A stretch of 64,000 nucleotides of DNA, taken from assembly GCF_021018745.1 (NCBI RefSeq), contig NZ_CP063845.1, forward strand, positions 1,860,001-1,924,000, given 5' to 3'. Origin of the DNA: Gloeobacter morelensis MG652769. Lineage in GTDB: Bacteria; Cyanobacteriota; Cyanobacteriia; Gloeobacterales; Gloeobacteraceae. The notes under the pieces are model-generated. The model saw nothing but the letters and a program-made list of their open reading frames with translations. It was not told the DNA's origin and did no database searches. Position numbers and translations under genes: made by a program. This document shows positions 28,698-37,900 of the stretch, piece after piece; the stretch's first letter is position 1, and every line of letters begins with the position of its first letter.

Positions 28698-28857
28698 AAT
28701 ACAAAGGAAAACCTTGGGGCAAAAAGGCAGTCCGGTCGCGCTGCGGCGTCGGTGTTTGTGGCACCTGGCTTCGGAGCGATCGGAAAGGCAATCGGCAACC
28801 GCGGTCCATTCGTTACATCTGCCTTGATTTTTGACGACCTATCAGGAGAACCGATCG

Positions 28858-29682
28858 ATGAATGTGCTCACCACCAGCAGCCAGCGGGGCGGCAAACTGT
28901 TCAAAGTGACGATGACTCTCTCTCCGGCGCTGTCGCACCATCCCTGGCCGAGCCTCGACACCTACGAGCCGAGCCAGAACAGCTACAGCGTCGTGGTGCC
29001 CCTCGACCGGCTGCTGGCCGAGATGACCTACATCAAGAACAAGGGCGGTCGTGTCCTCGACATTTCCCCGGCGGATCTCGAGGCCCTGGGACCGCCCGAC
29101 ATCAGCTCGGTCGCCATTCCCCTCAAAGTCGAACTGTGGGCCAAAGCCGACATCTCCGATGTGCAGGCGGCAATCGTGGCGGCCTACAAACAGGTTTTCG
29201 GCAACACCTACGTGCTCGAAAGCGAGCGGCTCACCTCCGCCGAGTCGCTATTGCGCAACGGCTCGATCAGCGTGCGCGAGTTCGTGCGGCTTCTGGCCAA
29301 ATCCGAACTGTACAAGGAACGCTTTTTTCTTTGCACCTCCAACAACCGCTTTATCGAACTGAACTTCAAGCATTTTTTGGGCCGCGCCCCTTATAACCAG
29401 TCGGAGATCGCCGAGCACCTCGACCGCTACCAGACGTTCGGTTATGACGCGGAGATCGATTCTTACATCGACAGCGACGAGTACATCCAGGCTTTCGGCG
29501 AAAATGTCGTTCCCTACTACCGCGGCTTCAAGTCCCAGTCCGGCCAGACCGTAGAGAGCTTCAACCGGATGTTCAAACTCTACCGCGGTGACGCCGGCAG
29601 CGACACCAATCTGAACCTGCGGGGCCAGAAGCGCCAGGTCGACCCTAAAAACCTGCTGCGCTCCGGCCGCGGCATCGTCTGA
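28858..29682 (+). CDS. Phycobilisome rod linker with N-terminal CpcD-like domain
   Basis: 274 residues from ATG 28858 (AGGAG 9 nt upstream). Residues about 12-72 resemble the CpcD domain (KLFKVTMTL ... SYSVVVPLDRLLAEMTYIKN, GGRVLDI). Residues about 85-215 are a PBS linker polypeptide domain (ESLLRNGSISVREFVRLLAK, ELNFKHFLGRAPYNQSEIAE, SYIDSDEYIQAFGENVVPYY). Canonical CpcC-type linkers have these two domains in the opposite order. It would organise phycocyanin discs in the rods. It is convergent with cpcBA and has its own terminator. Confidence 0.88.
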   Translation: MNVLTTSSQRGGKLFKVTMTLSPALSHHPWPSLDTYEPSQNSYSVVVPLDRLLAEMTYIKNKGGRVLDISPADLEALGPPDISSVAIPLKVELWAKADISDVQAAIVAAYKQVFGNTYVLESERLTSAESLLRNGSISVREFVRLLAKSELYKERFFLCTSNNRFIELNFKHFLGRAPYNQSEIAEHLDRYQTFGYDAEIDSYIDSDEYIQAFGENVVPYYRGFKSQSGQTVESFNRMFKLYRGDAGSDTNLNLRGQKRQVDPKNLLRSGRGIV

Positions 29683-29808: not shown

Positions 29809-30297
29809 TTAGCTCAGGGCGTTGATGCAGTAGTCGATGTAGGCGTTCGCCTCGGTGAGCGGCTGGCCCGACAGCTGCGAACCCACCTTGCCCTTGATGT
29901 GCTTCAACGCCTCGATGTACCAGCTCGGCGACAGGTTGAACGCCCGGTTCACCTCCCGCAGACCCGCCACGATGTAGTCGTCCAACGGACCGGTGCCACC
30001 CGCCACCAGACTGTAAGTAATAAAGCGCAGATAGTGGCTGATATCGCGCGCGCACTTCGCCTGGTTGGTGTCGCCGTAGCCCATCTGACCCGGCTGCGTC
30101 AGGTACGGAAACTTGTTGTACACCTCTTGAACCGCTCCTTTCACCAGCGAATCGGCGTTCGCGGTCAGCGCCCGCGCCGCTTCCATCGAGGACACCGCCC
30201 GCTGGAAACGGCCGTTCGCCGCCTGCAACTCGGTGTTGTTCAAAAAACGTCCCTGGCTGTCCGCCGAGGCGATCACTTCGGTAATCACGGTCTTCAT
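29809..30297 (-). CDS. cpcA: C-phycocyanin alpha subunit
   Basis: 162 residues, the standard CpcA length. The bilin-attachment Cys82 (Cys84 in consensus numbering) is in [20 protein letters not shown], and [20 protein letters not shown] and [13 protein letters not shown] are strongly conserved. Only one attachment Cys is present, as in phycocyanin rather than phycoerythrin. It forms alpha-beta trimers/hexamers with CpcB on the cytoplasmic face of the membrane and carries one phycocyanobilin. It is 32 nt downstream of cpcB. Confidence 0.96.
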
Positions 30298-30329: not shown

Positions 30330-30848
30330 CTAGGCGATGCTCGCAGCAGCCTTGTCAAAATAGGTGGCCGCTTCGTTGACCAGCGCCGAACAGTCGCCGC
30401 GGGTCACCCCGGCGGGGCTGTTGACGTAGCCTATCGCCGATTCTTTCATCAGTTGGACCGCGCGGGCCACCGAACGGGTCGGGGTGCCCAGCGCCACGTA
30501 GGTCTCTTTGAGGCCGTTGAGGCAGCGGTCTTCGAGCACCGACGCGTCGCCGGCCAAAAGCGCGTAGGAGACGTAGCGCAGGATGATTTCCATGTCGCGC
30601 AGGCAGGCGGCCATGCGGCGGTTGGGGTAAGCGTTGCCGCCCGGACGAATCAGGTCGGTCTGCTCGGCGAACAGTTTGTGGGCGGCATCGGAGATGATTT
30701 CGGCGGCGTTGCCGGTGATGGCGTTGACGGCGTCGAGGCGCTTGTTGGATTCTTTGACCAGGTTGGTCAGCTGGTTGAGTTCCTGCTCGTTGAGGAACGA
30801 CCCGCGCAGATCCGCCGCAACAATGGCTTTGGTGAATGCGTCTTGCAT
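30330..30848 (-). CDS. cpcB: C-phycocyanin beta subunit
   Basis: 172 residues from ATG 30848 (GGAG in the leader). Two bilin Cys residues are present: Cys82 in [19 protein letters not shown] and Cys153 in [12 protein letters not shown]. Asn72, methylated in known CpcB proteins, lies in [10 protein letters not shown] longer open frame upstream is not coding. First gene of the cpcBA operon; no linker or lyase genes follow on the same strand. Confidence 0.96.
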
Positions 30849-31162: not shown

Positions 31163-31244
31163 GTGAGTGTTGCAGCCGCAGTGCTTACCGCAGCGCCGGG
31201 CCGAGCGAACGCTCGATAATGCGAATGCCCGACATACTTTGCCG

Positions 31245-32744
31245 ATGAGTCTGCACCGATTTTGCTGTGGGTTGCTAAGCGCCGTGCTTTTTGGTCTTGG
31301 GTCGCTGCTGGGTGCAGCCCCGAGCCGGGCAGCCGAGATCTCGGCACCCGCCGGGGGATGCCGGCTCTCCGCCGAGGCGGTGGCGCGCAAGGCGGCGTGG
31401 CAGCGCGCCGCACTGGCTGGGAACGGCGAAGCTGGGCGGCGCTATCTGGCGCAGATCGGCGAAGACGCCGCGCAGCTGCGGCTCTGCCGTGCTGCTGTGT
31501 GGCCGCGGGTGCAGGCAATCTGGCTGCGACTCTACCCGTGCGACCTACAGCCCGGGGCGATCGACGCGCTGATGGACCGGCTGGTGGCCCTGGGCTACAA
31601 CCGCATTCATCTGGAGGTGTTTTTTGAAGGCCAAGTATTGTTGCCCATGGCCGACAACCCGACTGTCTGGCCGAGCGTGGTCCGCGTGCCGCCCTCGGCG
31701 GATCTGCTGGCCTCGGCCATTGCCAGTGCAAGGGCGCGGGGAGTGGCCGTTTACGCCTGGCTGTTTTCGCTCAACTTCGGCTACTCCTATACCCAACTGG
31801 CCGACCGGCAGGTCGCCCTGGCCTGCAACGGTCTCGGCCGCACCAGTCTGACGGCGGTGGGGGAGATCGACTCCCAGACCGACATGAGTATTCTCGAACT
31901 GGATCGGGTCTTCGTCGATCCCTACAGCCGGGTGGCCCGGGAGGACTTCGCCCGGTTGGTCGAAGCGGTGCTGCGGCGCAAACCGGACGGCATCTTGTTT
32001 GATTACGTCCGCTATCCGCGCTCGAGCGGAGCGGCCTCGGTGGCGACGGGCGTGCGCGACTTGTGGGTCTTCGGTGAAGCTTCCCGCCAGACCTTGCTCA
32101 GCCGCACCCTCAACCTGTGGGGTGGGTTTCTCATCGAACGCTATCTGGAGCGCGGCTGGCTGAGCGAGAGCGATCTGGCCGAAGCGGACCGGCAATTTCC
32201 ACTGCGCACAGGAGCGCCCTGGAGCGGGTACAGCCCCCCGGCGCGGCCATTGTCGCCCGCCGGGCGCCGTCCGTACCTCCAGCGGCAGCTGTGGTCGCTG
32301 GGCCTCTCCCACGCCCGCGAAGGGATTGTCCAGTATCTGGCGGAAGCGGCGTTGCCCGCCCATCTCCAGGGGGTCGCCACGGGAGCGGTATTTTTTGCGG
32401 AGGCCGACCGGGCCGTAGGTGCCGGATTTGATTCGCGCCTGCAACCGTGGCCCCAATTTTTAAGCGTCGGCGAGTGGCATCCCATGGTCTACGCCAACTG
32501 CGGCGAGGCCCACTGCATCCTCTCCCAGGTGCAGACGGTTCTGGAGCGGACACCGCCGGGAATTGCCGTGGTGCCCTCCCTCGCGGGTGTCTGGGGGCGA
32601 GCGCACACCGGTCGGCCGGCTCTTGAAGTGCAGATGGCCGCGCTACAAGCCGCTTTTCCGTCCTTGCAGGCAGTGAGCCACTTTGCCTACGCCTGGCAGG
32701 AACCGCAACTAGAGCGCGAGCGGCGCACCTGCTCCGGCCACTAG
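31245..32744 (+). CDS. Secreted glycosyl-hydrolase-like protein (family 10-like, DUF187/GHL10 type)
   Basis: 499 residues from ATG 31245. A signal peptide is visible (GLLSAVLFGLGSLLGAAPSRA, cleavage near AEIS). The body has the TIM-barrel pattern of GHL10 proteins: MDRLVALGYNRIHLEVFF, SARARGVAVYAWLFSLNFGY, FVDPYSRVAREDFARLVEAV and GILFDYVRYPRS. Enzymes of this type act on bacterial envelope or extracellular polysaccharide. It is divergent from cpcB. Its stop codon and that of the convergent signal-peptidase-like gene share the palindrome CTAG. Confidence 0.8.
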   Translation: MSLHRFCCGLLSAVLFGLGSLLGAAPSRAAEISAPAGGCRLSAEAVARKAAWQRAALAGNGEAGRRYLAQIGEDAAQLRLCRAAVWPRVQAIWLRLYPCDLQPGAIDALMDRLVALGYNRIHLEVFFEGQVLLPMADNPTVWPSVVRVPPSADLLASAIASARARGVAVYAWLFSLNFGYSYTQLADRQVALACNGLGRTSLTAVGEIDSQTDMSILELDRVFVDPYSRVAREDFARLVEAVLRRKPDGILFDYVRYPRSSGAASVATGVRDLWVFGEASRQTLLSRTLNLWGGFLIERYLERGWLSESDLAEADRQFPLRTGAPWSGYSPPARPLSPAGRRPYLQRQLWSLGLSHAREGIVQYLAEAALPAHLQGVATGAVFFAEADRAVGAGFDSRLQPWPQFLSVGEWHPMVYANCGEAHCILSQVQTVLERTPPGIAVVPSLAGVWGRAHTGRPALEVQMAALQAAFPSLQAVSHFAYAWQEPQLERERRTCSGH

Positions 32745-33238
32745 CGCTCGACAACGGCGAGAATGTCCTTGACGGGCACGCTGGAGCGCCTCCACTGGCG
32801 GTTGTCGCTCGCGGCGGCGCGGTTGTCGCCTAAAACAAAGTACGCGTCCGTCGGAACGGTGAGCGGACCGAATTCGGCTTTGGGCCGGGGGGCACCGTCC
32901 TCGGTTGCCGGTTGGGTAGAAATAAACGGTTCATCCAGGGACCTGCCGCCCACGCTCGCCCGGTAGGCGGACACCTGCACCAGCTCGCCCGGCAGGGCAA
33001 TCACGCGGCGAATGGTGGTCTCGTCGGGTTTATCGGGATCTTTGACGACCACCAGGTCGAAGCGGCCCGGCGGCCGTTTCTCCAGAGTATCGAAGTTCTC
33101 GCGTACCACCTCCTGGGCTCGGATGGTGGGCTCCATGCCGCTGTCGGGCATCTTGCGCAGCCGTACATCGGTCTGCAGGGCGCAGCCGACCAACCCCAGG
33201 GCGAAACCACACAAAACAAATCGTTGCATGCGTCCCAT
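32741..33238 (-). CDS. Signal-peptidase-I-like lipoprotein with altered catalytic lysine
   Basis: 165 residues from ATG 33238 (33229 and TTG 33250 are alternatives). Family boxes are clear: box B with the nucleophile Ser33 (PDSGMEPTI), box D (TIRRVIALPGE) and box E (FVLGDNRAAASDNRQW). However, the general-base Lys of box D (KR.IG.PG in active enzymes) is Arg77, and the N-terminus is a lipobox (LGLVGC, Cys19) instead of a transmembrane anchor. It may be an inactive or repurposed S26 family protein held at the membrane by lipid. It overlaps the convergent gene by 4 nt. Confidence 0.82.
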   Translation of the reverse strand: MGRMQRFVLCGFALGLVGCALQTDVRLRKMPDSGMEPTIRAQEVVRENFDTLEKRPPGRFDLVVVKDPDKPDETTIRRVIALPGELVQVSAYRASVGGRSLDEPFISTQPATEDGAPRPKAEFGPLTVPTDAYFVLGDNRAAASDNRQWRRSSVPVKDILAVVER

Positions 33239-33318
33239 CAAAGCGTACAAGCCCTCCCCAGGGCAATGTGAGCAACTGTCCGCGCCGCCTCACCCCTGGG
33301 GCCGAACCTGCAAACCAG

Positions 33319-33391
<73 letters not shown>

Positions 33392-33535: not shown

Positions 33536-34090
33536 GTGCAGTCCGCCCAGCCACGCGAAAAACACCTGATCATCGGAGTGTACGCCAATGAACCGATCGC
33601 CCTGGAAGCCTTTCGCCTACTCCAGCAGCGCGGTATGTCGCCTGAGAACGTCGCCATCGTGGGCAAGGGCTATCGCGACGCCGACGCTGTAGGCTTCGCA
33701 GACCCGGTGAAGGTGGCCAAAGAGCGCGCCTGGAAGACCGCCGGGTTTACAGGCCTGCTCGGGCTGGTGTTCGGCTTTTTGTTCAACTGGCTGACGCAGA
33801 TAGACATTGTCCCGGACAACCGGGTATTGAGCCTGATCATTGCCGCCATCCTGGGCGGTCTTTCCGGCCTGATGGGCGGTGTGTTGGTGGGTGGCGGCAC
33901 CGGCCTGGTCTTTGAGAGCGGCGAATCGATTGCCTACCGCAACCGCATCGAAAAGGGCAAATACCTGTTGCTCGTGGAAGGCAACGAAGTACTGGTGCGC
34001 ACTGCAGAACAGGCGCTGCGCAGTCTCAGCACCGCCGAAGCGCTCGATCGTTATTACTTTCGCGACTTGCAGCCGGCCGCCGATTCATGA
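33536..34090 (+). CDS. Membrane protein of the general-stress 17M/DUF1269-like type
   Basis: 184 residues from GTG 33536 (GGAG 6 nt upstream). The N-terminal part ([31 protein letters not shown]) resembles the heat-induced/stress 17M fold. Two Gly-rich hydrophobic segments follow at about residues 68-90 and 100-130 ([20 protein letters not shown]), and the C-terminus ([20 protein letters not shown]) is a small regulatory-looking domain. It overlaps the convergent hemC by 6 nt. Function unknown. Confidence 0.75.
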
Positions 34091-35071
34091 AGCCGGCGCG
34101 GCACCAGGAGCGACCACCTCGGGAGAACGAACGAGGACAAAAATCTCCTCAAGAATCGCCTGGGCGCCCGCCGCTTTGAGATCTTCTGCCACAGCCTGGC
34201 CCAGGGCCTCCGGCGCGTCGCCGGGACCGGTGCGGCAGGCGCGCGCCACATTCTGGCCATCGAGGGAAGCGACGATACCTTGCAGGGTGAGCCGACCGCT
34301 GTCGTCCAGTTCGGTGTATACGCCGATCGGTACCTGGCAGCCGCCTTCGAGGGCGCGCAGCATGGCCCGCTCCGCCCGGCAGCGCCAGGCGGTCGGGGGG
34401 TGGTTGAGAACGGTCAGCAAGTCCAGGATCTCCCCGTCCGCTTCGCGGCACTCGATACCTAGAGCACCCTGGCCGACGGCGTGCAGCGAGATGTCTGGGG
34501 AGAGCACTTCGCTAATCCGCTCGGCCCAGCCCAACCGCCGCATGCCTGCCACGGCGAGCACAATCGCGTCGTAGCGGCCCTCATCGAGCTTGCGCAAGCG
34601 CGTGTTGAGATTGCCCCGGATGTCCTCGAAGCGCAGGTGCTCGCCGTAGTGATGCTTGAGTTGGGCGAGGCGGCGCAATGAAGAAGTGCCGACGACCGCC
34701 CCTTCGGGTAGATCGGCAAGCCCCGCAGCTTCAAGCCCCCGGCGCACGATCACCGCGTCGCTCGGATCTTCGCGCTCGGTGATCGCTCCCAAAATGAGCC
34801 CCGGCGGCAGGGTCGTGGGCAGATCCTTCAGCGAGTGCACGGCAAGATCCGTGCGCTTCTCGAGCATGGCGCTTTCGAGTTCTTTGGTAAAAAGGCCCTT
34901 GTCGCCAATCTTGGCGAGGGCGACATCGAGGATCTTGTCGCCCTGGGTTTTCATCTCGACAATTTCAAACTGGATGTCCGGGTGGGCGCGCTGCAGTTCG
35001 TTGCGGACCCAGTGGGTCTGAACGAGGGCCAGTTGCGAATCGCGCGAACCGATAATCACTGTGCGGGACAC
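34085..35071 (-). CDS. hemC: Porphobilinogen deaminase (hydroxymethylbilane synthase)
   Basis: 328 residues. It shows [25 protein letters not shown], the catalytic Asp in [25 protein letters not shown], and the dipyrromethane-binding Cys in [11 protein letters not shown]. It polymerises four porphobilinogens into hydroxymethylbilane, the common path to haem, chlorophyll and bilins. The C-terminal about 20 residues are Ala/Pro rich and variable. It is monocistronic by position, with convergent and divergent neighbours. Confidence 0.96.
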
Positions 35072-35155
35072 GCCGCCACCTCCAACCGCAAAGCTTTCCT
35101 AGCATATCTGCAAGAGCAGGTACACTGAAAACGTTTGCCTGCCGAGTCTCCTGCG

Positions 35156-35926
35156 ATGATCCGCCTGCGCAGATCGTTTGCCAGCCGCGCCTTGCGCGGG
35201 CGGGCCGTGGTCGAGAACCACCACCGCCTGCAACAAAAAATTGCAGCTGCACCGGGAGGTTCTGCCGTGGCGGCTTTTTTTGACATGGACCAGACGCTGG
35301 TGGCCGGCAACTCCTCGATTCTCTACGTGCAGCGGGCGATGGCCGAGGAGCGCGCCGGGATGAGCGACCTGTTCAAGACGATCTATTACTATTTGCTCTA
35401 CCGCTTCAATCGGCTTTCGGTCGATGCCATTTTGAAGCCGACCCTCGAAGGCATCCGCGGCCGGCAGGAAGCGCAATTTGCCGATTTTTGCCGGCAGATC
35501 GCCCTCAAAGAATTGCTGCCCCGCGTCGGTCGCCAGGCGCGGCTGGTCCTCGATTGGCACCGGGAGCGCGGCCATCGCTGCGTGCTGTTGACCGCCGCCA
35601 CCTGCTATCTGGCCCAGCCGCTCGCCGAGGCACTCGGCATGGACGCGGTGCTCTCGACGCAATTGGAGGTAGCAGAGGGGCTGTTCACCGGCCGGTTGCA
35701 TGGCCTCGGCCTCTGCTACGGCGAAGGCAAGGTCAAAGCCGCCCAACTGTGGGCAGCGGCGGCGGGGGTCGAACTGATGGACAGCTTTTTCTACACCGAC
35801 AGCGCCTCGGATCTGCCGATGCTGAGTGCCGTGGGCATTCCGGTGGCGGTTAATCCCGACTGGGTGCTCCGTCGGCTCGCCCGGCGCAAAGGCTGGCTTG
35901 CCTGCCGCTGGCCGCGCCAGGCGTAA
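35156..35926 (+). CDS. HAD-IB family phosphatase (SerB-like)
   Basis: 256 residues from ATG 35156 (TTG 35135 possible). Catalytic motif I is FFDMDQTLVAGNS (Gln replaces the usual Gly), motif II is LLTAAT, and motif IV is YTDSASDLPML. The helical cap and the C-terminal basic region place it with HAD-IB enzymes such as CicA/SerB relatives that hydrolyse phosphoserine, phospholipid or acyl-linked phosphates. It precedes der at 40 nt and probably shares its transcript. Confidence 0.83.
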   Translation: MIRLRRSFASRALRGRAVVENHHRLQQKIAAAPGGSAVAAFFDMDQTLVAGNSSILYVQRAMAEERAGMSDLFKTIYYYLLYRFNRLSVDAILKPTLEGIRGRQEAQFADFCRQIALKELLPRVGRQARLVLDWHRERGHRCVLLTAATCYLAQPLAEALGMDAVLSTQLEVAEGLFTGRLHGLGLCYGEGKVKAAQLWAAAAGVELMDSFFYTDSASDLPMLSAVGIPVAVNPDWVLRRLARRKGWLACRWPRQA

Positions 35927-35966
35927 GAGCGCACCTGCCGCCTCGATGGGCTAGCATAGTCTGGCT

Positions 35967-37334
35967 ATGCAATTACCCATCGTCGCCATCGTTGGACGGC
36001 CGAACGTCGGCAAGTCCACGCTACTCAACCGCTTGGCGGGAGGCAGCGAAGCCATCGTCTACGACCAGCCGGGGGTCACCCGCGACCGGCTCTACCTGCC
36101 GGCCGAATGGTGCGGCTACCGCTTCGAGGTGGTTGATACCGGCGGACTGGTCTTCGAGGATAGCGAGGTCTTTTTGCCGCTGATTCGCGAGCAGGTCGAA
36201 ATCGCCCTGGCCGAAGCGGCGGCGGTCCTGTTCGTGGTGGATGGCCAGCAGGGGATCACCGGCGGCGATCGGGAGGTGGCCGACTGGCTGCGCGGACGCA
36301 AACCGCCCGTGCTCATCGTGGCGAACAAACTGGAGGAGCCTTCGACGGCCCTGAGCCTGGCGGCCGAATTTTATGCACTCGGTTTGGGCGAACCCTACGC
36401 CGTCTCGGCCATCCACGGTTCGGGCACGGGCGATCTGCTCGATGCGCTGGTGGCGGTGCTTCCCAAAGAGCAGCCCGAGGCACAGGAACTACCCGAACTG
36501 CGCGTGTCCATCGTCGGGCGGCCGAACGTCGGCAAATCGAGCCTGCTCAACGCCCTGGTGGGTGGGGAGCACCCGCGCTCGATGGTCTCGGAGGTGGCGG
36601 GCACCACCCGCGACGCCATCGACACGCTCGTCGAGCGCGGCGAGCGGCGCTATCGTCTGATCGATACGGCGGGCATCCGCCGCAAATCCCGCGTTGACTA
36701 CGGACCGGAGGCGTTCGGGGTGACGCGGGCGATTCGCGCCATCCGCCGCGCCGATGTGGTGGTGCTGGTCGTCGACGCCACCGAGGGCATCCACGATCAA
36801 GAAAGAAACCTCGCAGCCAAGATCGCTTCGGCGGGACGCGCCTGCGTGCTGGTGGTCAACAAATGGGATGCCATCGAAAAAGACACCTACACGATGAACC
36901 ACTACCGCGACGAGGTGCGCCGCGAACTGGATTTCGTCGAATGGGCGCCGGTGGTTTTTACCAGTGCCCTCACCGGCCAGCGGGTCGAAAAGATCTTCGA
37001 TGCCATCGACGCCGCCGCCGGGCAGCACCAGCGCCGTGTCTCCACCTCGGTACTCAACGAAGCCCTGCAGGATGCGCTGCTGTGGCGCTCGCCCCCCGCC
37101 AGCCGCCAGGGGCGCCAGGGCAAGGTCTACTACGCGACCCAGATCGCCACCAACCCGCCCACGTTCGTGCTTTTTGTCAATGACACCAAGCTCTTCAAAG
37201 AAGGCTACCGCCGCTACCTCGAAGGGCAGTTTCGCGGTTCGCTCGGCTTCGAGGGCTCGCCGGTGCGCTTTATCTTTCGAGGCAAACCCGAGCGCGAGGC
37301 AAACCGCACCGCCCGCAAAAGCGAGCCGGTCTGA
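35967..37334 (+). CDS. der: Ribosome-associated GTPase Der (EngA)
   Basis: 455 residues with two tandem GTPase domains: [14 protein letters not shown] and NKLE in the first, [14 protein letters not shown] and NKWD in the second, then the KH-like C-terminal domain. Der is needed for 50S subunit maturation. It overlaps the following DUF1802 gene by 1 nt (TGATG). Confidence 0.97.
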
Positions 37335-37900
37335 TGCGCACCGCCCTCAAGGAGTGGGCGGTAGTCTGCGAAGCCCTCGCCCGGGGCGAACAGAGCCTCC
37401 TGCTGCGCAAAGGCGGCATCCGCGAGCGCCGCGCGGGTTTTGCGTTGGAGCACCGGACTTTCTGGCTCTATCCGACCAGCTTTCATCAAGATCCCGAGAA
37501 GCTTGCACCCTCCGTCCGGCGGCAACGGCCGCCCCAACCGACGCCGGGAACGGTTGCGCTGGCCCTTTATGCCGAAGTGGCGGATCACTGGAAAGTGGTG
37601 GACCTCGAAGCGCTGCGCTCGCTCGAAGGGCTGCACGTTCTGGGCTGGTCCACGATCGCCGAGCGCTTTTATTACCGGAAGAAGCCCGGGCTGGAGGTGG
37701 TGCTGGTGCGGGTTTATCGGCCGGAGCATCCGCAGGTTCTTCGTGAGCAACCCCAGTACGCCGGTTGTCACTCCTGGATGACGCTCGATGCATCCATCGC
37801 ACCCGCAGCGAGCGTACCGGTAGTGGGCGACAGCGAATTTGCCGCGCTGCACCGACGGCTTTGCACGTTGCTTGGACCTCCTGGCGATGGGTCGATTTGA
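37334..37900 (+). CDS. DUF1802 family protein
   Basis: 188 residues beginning [20 protein letters not shown] followed by LLLRKGGI, the DUF1802 signature, with a later YRPEHPQVL. The family is frequent in cyanobacteria and has no known function. It is translationally coupled to der and overlaps the next hydrolase gene by 14 nt. Confidence 0.88.
   Translation: MRTALKEWAVVCEALARGEQSLLLRKGGIRERRAGFALEHRTFWLYPTSFHQDPEKLAPSVRRQRPPQPTPGTVALALYAEVADHWKVVDLEALRSLEGLHVLGWSTIAERFYYRKKPGLEVVLVRVYRPEHPQVLREQPQYAGCHSWMTLDASIAPAASVPVVGDSEFAALHRRLCTLLGPPGDGSI

Follow-up and report, generated by a model that had tools for sequence, protein, structure and literature searches.

Type I signal peptidases use as nucleophile the serine that directly precedes the methionine of the S-M-x-P-T motif. 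Dead relatives of these enzymes are known in Gram-positive bacteria, where their job is unsolved. In SipA of Streptococcus pyogenes both the Ser and the Lys of the catalytic dyad have been lost (Asp48 and Gly85), and a peptide-binding cleft has been kept (PMC4049620). SipA is essential for pilus assembly and polymerisation, mutating its "catalytic" positions had no effect, and it did not bind test peptides in vitro (PMC4049620). Within the literature that we searched, no relevant paper dealt with a cyanobacterial type I signal peptidase that is inactive or a lipoprotein.

Here we describe a gene of Gloeobacter morelensis MG652769 that lies in a stretch of 64,000 nucleotides (the window, whose positions are used throughout) and that is predicted to encode such a protein. 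The features of the locus are collected in Table 1.

Table 1. Features at the S26-like lipoprotein locus, in window positions
Feature	Position	Strand	Basis or remark
S26-like lipoprotein CDS (165 aa + stop)	32741..33238	minus	ORF, Pfam/TIGR matches, orthologs
In-frame TTG, alternative start of the S26-like gene	33250	minus	
Predicted lipoprotein signal peptide MGRMQRFVLCGFALGLVG, residues 1-18, lipobox L-V-G-C	33185..33238	minus	Hydrophobic, n-region +2, GvH lipobox pattern
Cys19 codon, predicted lipidation site and first mature residue	33182..33184	minus	Invariant in 6/6 orthologs
Box B, P31-D-S-G34-M-E-P-T-I-R40	33119..33148	minus	Three alignments; catalytic Ser position is Gly34 (GGC)
Box D, I76-R77-R78-V-I-A-L-P-G-E85	32984..33013	minus	Three alignments; catalytic Lys position is Arg77
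Box E, G137-D-N-R-A-A-A-S-D-N-R-Q-W149	32792..32830	minus	HMM columns; E. coli Ser278 position is Ala143
tRNA-Phe (gaa), neighbour immediately upstream, not part of the system	33318..33391	minus	
Convergent 525-aa ORF	31167..32744	plus	Stop overlaps the end of the S26-like gene by 4 bases

An S26 protein confined to Gloeobacteraceae among the genomes searched

Judged by its sequence, the window protein is beyond doubt a real S26 protein. It matches Pfam Peptidase_S26 (PF10502; E 4e-25, 89.2 bits against a cut-off of 22.9), TIGR02227 (78.6 bits against a curated cut-off of 47) and solved signal peptidases in phmmer searches, the best being 4me8 (7.9e-9). Boxes B, D and E are all recognisable and in order, as an earlier reading of the window from its letters alone (the sequence-only reading) had held. 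The surrounding genome of 5.1 Mb encodes two canonical signal peptidases besides (L001 and L002), and these active-looking paralogs coexist with an S26 core that has lost both dyad residues. An AlphaFold model based on just the window protein and one near-identical relative had a pLDDT of only 37, too low to be of use.

When the protein or the six-member ortholog alignment was used as query, strong matches (237-308 bits) were found only in six Gloeobacteraceae genomes, that of the window and five others (G001 to G005); any other S26 protein in 386 sampled Cyanobacteriota genomes scored at most 83 bits. No clade member was found in three other Gloeobacterales genomes or in the 385 further Cyanobacteriota genomes sampled. 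Each of the six genomes has one clade copy and one or two further S26 proteins. Identities to the window protein are 96, 96, 55, 53 and 50%, and divergence among the six reaches about 47-50% identity. The orthologs form one clade on a long branch (support 100/100) and have in common the signature CxLQTDxRLRxxPDSxMEPT. A contig scan with close-relative peptide patterns, the means by which phyla other than Cyanobacteriota were searched, gave a near-identical copy in Aphanocapsa lilacina as its sole match. Viral contigs yielded zero matches, and plasmids only weak ones (29-34% identity among the matches listed), mostly annotated as ordinary signal peptidases. From these searches, the six proteins are a distinct clade of predicted lipoproteins, confined to Gloeobacteraceae among the genomes searched.

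In another Gloeobacterales family, the genomes G008 and G007 (L075 and L076) each have adjacent canonical signal peptidases with long open frames (276-362 aa). They match the query in two pieces, suggesting a core insertion, and have S-M-x-P-T and the box E Ser.

Replacement of the catalytic residues

The register of positions 34 and 77 was taken from a phmmer alignment to PDB 4me8, from the columns of a profile HMM whose alignment took in 67 canonical cyanobacterial sequences, and from a profile-profile alignment. All three place Gly34 at the catalytic Ser of box B and Arg77 at the catalytic Lys of box D. The sequence-only reading was thus right to put Arg77 in the place of the general base, but it mistook Ser33 for a retained catalytic Ser; Ser33 is the variable residue just before the nucleophile column (G, E, D, S, T or A in aligned relatives). 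A third loss, that of the box E Ser (Ala143 in the profile HMM columns), was missing from that reading. Among non-clade cyanobacterial S26 proteins, all 63 that could be scored at the three positions read S/K/S, and four further canonical proteins read S/K with box E unaligned; there was no loss of S or K wherever both positions aligned (L077 aligned partially, and its Ser column was not scored).

In the order Ser, Lys and box E Ser, the clade members read G/R/A (window, G001 and G002), G/R/G (G003), A/R/N (G004) and S/K/S (G005). The Lys-to-Arg change that the sequence-only reading proposed to look for in relatives is therefore shared by the window protein and four orthologs, and the fifth keeps Lys. 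Because Ser, Lys and the supporting Ser have all been replaced, a retained Ser33 paired with an Arg base would not make a working dyad, and the window protein is very probably inactive as a protease. Two candidate substitutes were rejected: Ser33 as nucleophile, which aligns to a variable position and also occurs in the S/K-bearing G005 protein, and K66 as base, which is likewise present in that Lys-bearing ortholog. Box D itself has no Lys, and the notion that some other Lys acts as general base finds no support. The sequence-only reading had left the choice between an inactive regulator and a new S26 enzyme; the three replacements favour the inactive protein, and a new enzyme is unlikely for the window protein but possible for the G005 ortholog, with its lipobox and intact S/K/S.

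A predicted lipid anchor

We looked for the strict lipobox pattern [LVI][ASTVI][GAS]C, preceded by hydrophobic residues and by an n-region that carries charge. The strict pattern is present in five of the six orthologs, and a looser one in all six; the window protein has LVGC and an n-region charge of +2, the G004 lipobox is non-canonical at -3 (TTAC), and the G005 n-region has no net positive charge. The only hydrophobic segment of the window protein is the one that ends in the lipobox. In its mature part, no 19-residue window exceeds 1.0 on the Kyte-Doolittle scale, whereas a canonical paralog does have one. The sequence-only reading was right about the lipobox at Cys19, and a lipid anchor in place of the transmembrane helix is predicted. 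Across the six-ortholog alignment, 15 of the 20 columns from Cys19 on are invariant as against 0 of the 18 ahead of it, as one would expect if a signal peptide is removed and the mature N-terminus after it is under constraint. Both Lgt and LspA are encoded in the genome. Cys19 precedes the box B Met by 16 residues, at the place where the hydrophobic helix of the canonical paralog L001 is ending, and the lipid could therefore hold the core about as high above the membrane as the canonical helix does.

Proposed order of events, and selection

The G005 ortholog (L008) reads C-GLQTDVRLRKMPDSSMEPT, TLIKRVLALPGE and ADNRIDSYDSRLW, that is, with the lipobox at the same position and with all three catalytic residues, and is predicted to be active. 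A gene neighbouring it on the contig is 77-78% identical to its counterparts in three genomes of the window's genus as against 58-61% in other families of the order, and on this ground the contig is genuinely from Gloeobacteraceae. Because the G005 protein combines the lipobox with an intact active site and is the first to branch inside the clade (support 95/65), the data suggest that an active signal peptidase exchanged its membrane helix for a lipid anchor first and lost catalysis later, under purifying selection. A lipoprotein signal peptidase that was still active was probably the ancestral form, a state that would survive in G005, and the simplest history then has Arg replacing Lys in the common ancestor of Gloeobacter and G004. 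At the nucleophile position, G004 has the codon GCT (Ala) and Gloeobacter GGC or GGT (Gly); since TCT, GCT and GGT form a path of single changes, one loss of Ser followed by drift and two separate losses are both possible.

Between the window gene and its G001 ortholog there are 14 differences (dN 0.016, dS 0.067), for a dN/dS of about 0.25 that is imprecise because dS is oddly low (0.29-0.32 in the canonical paralogs). For the same species pair, the dN of the canonical paralogs is 0.011 and 0.045, with the window gene between them, and against the more distant orthologs its dN is below dS. These values speak against decay, and the protein sequence is conserved.

Divergence between the window and G001 is uneven by gene (34085-37900; L035 and L039): a HAD-like and a Der-like GTPase gene are 99% identical, and the next ORF 85%. 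Together with an S26 gene dS about one quarter of that of the canonical signal peptidases, this hints at recombination between the window species and G001.

Genomic neighbourhood

The convergent 525-aa ORF is a neighbour conserved in the closest species only. Its copy in G002 is full length (93%), and that in G001 (L035, 10155-11127) aligns over residues 1-253 and 451-525 only, the middle looking deleted. Across the compared ortholog loci we found no conserved neighbour that names a client and, reading the neighbourhoods by eye, no sortase-pilus operon. In G004 alone, three prepilin-like genes and a gene for a HEAT-like protein precede the ortholog on the same strand (L038, G004:C100, 686-3754, minus strand) and possibly form one operon with it; these genes were identified by eye, and we treat them as a lead to function, not as evidence for it. 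Also near the window gene, by eye, are phycobilisome-linker-like and phycobiliprotein-like genes (28831-29682, 29809-30297 and 30330-30836); the two phycobiliprotein-like ORFs share about 30% identity.

Proposed role and alternative explanations

The explanation that we favour, and consider reasonably probable, is that the window protein is a lipid-anchored S26 pseudopeptidase, which no longer cuts but has kept its cleft and binds peptide at the membrane surface. Lgt and LspA would process the precursor, so that the mature core would begin at the lipidated Cys19 and sit on the periplasmic face of the membrane, with Cys19 about where a canonical membrane helix ends. Through a peptide-binding cleft that would have outlived its cutting activity, the core may bind a peptide or a signal-peptide segment. 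It may act as adaptor, chaperone or competitor, whether towards a secreted client or towards the two ordinary signal peptidases. The peptide-binding role is proposed by analogy only. Ordinary signal peptidase function is already covered, since the genome has two canonical enzymes. A bolder version, which we put forward as doubtful, is that in Gloeobacter the lipoprotein acts as a partner of the two ordinary signal peptidases: without catalysis of its own, it would bind signal peptides or preproteins and tune how these enzymes process them. It would derive from a lipid-anchored active enzyme, still active in G005, and would work in thylakoid-less cells that have one membrane for both periplasmic and photosynthetic export.

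We weighed these ideas against four others. Loss of the catalytic residues, partial degradation of box E in G004 and the lack of a conserved neighbourhood would all fit a decaying, functionless remnant of a signal peptidase; this is nevertheless improbable, for the frame is intact in six of six Gloeobacteraceae genomes at identities down to about 47-50%, 15 of 20 columns are invariant from the Cys on, and dN/dS is about 0.25 with a dN not above that of a canonical paralog. It is highly improbable that the protein remains a peptidase and works by an unusual mechanism, in which the nucleophile has shifted to Ser33 and the base is Arg77 or a different Lys, for instance K66. In favour of this, all six orthologs have both Ser33 and K66, and LexA with its catalytic Lys changed to Arg reportedly still cleaves itself at very high pH. 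However, Ser33 and K66 also occur in G005 beside an ordinary S/K pair and are hence no replacements, Ser33 stands in a variable position adjoining the nucleophile in a register on which three alignments agree, and the box E Ser has gone together with the Ser and the Lys.

The remaining two concern the anchor and the partner. If the lipobox were unused, the uncleaved N-terminus would be the membrane anchor of an ordinary transmembrane-anchored S26 pseudopeptidase, and the hydrophobic stretch is indeed located like a canonical transmembrane helix relative to box B. Against this, which we consider quite improbable, are a Cys that is invariant although none of the columns ahead of it is, the strict lipobox pattern of five of the six orthologs, and the presence of Lgt and LspA. 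A role like that of SipA, as an accessory lipoprotein that helps the subunits of pili or pseudopili to assemble into filaments, would suit the G004 gene, just downstream of its prepilin-like and HEAT-like genes; yet pilin genes were not seen near the other ortholog loci, and the peptidase that processes type IV prepilins is of another class. SipA is itself a pilus-assembly protein (PMC4049620), but its system, that of sortase pili, is a different one, and an accessory of this kind seems improbable too.

Significance and comparison with known systems

The window clade adds an independent case of a dead signal peptidase, in a Gram-negative lineage. One intact protein and several dead ones occur naturally in this small family, which makes the step from enzyme to pseudoenzyme testable by comparing them. 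If the lipid anchor is true, the core of a type I signal peptidase does not need its membrane helix to be tethered. It is also likely that genes of the clade are misannotated as "signal peptidase I", because the TIGR02227 equivalog cut-off is passed despite the lost active site.

The window protein belongs by sequence to the same family as the type I signal peptidases (LepB/SipS, MEROPS S26A; TIGR02227), with boxes B, D and E in order and the same predicted topology, in which the core lies outside the cytoplasmic membrane and a hydrophobic segment directly precedes it. Unlike these enzymes, it has other residues in place of the Ser nucleophile, the Lys base and the box E Ser, a lipobox and predicted lipid anchor instead of a transmembrane helix, and a shortened C-terminus from which the canonical FRFWP stretch is missing. 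The G005 ortholog resembles the window protein in its lipobox, its CxLQTDVRLRxMPDSxMEPT signature and its clade, but has S, K and S all present and is predicted to be active. With SipA, the window protein shares an S26 ancestry in which both dyad residues have been replaced, and probably a peptide cleft, which in SipA was shown by structure (PMC4049620). SipA, however, has Asp and Gly at the dyad positions, is encoded in Gram-positive sortase-pilus operons and is not described as a lipoprotein (PMC4049620), whereas the window clade is cyanobacterial, stands outside any conserved operon, and combines Gly or Ala and Arg at those positions with a lipobox.
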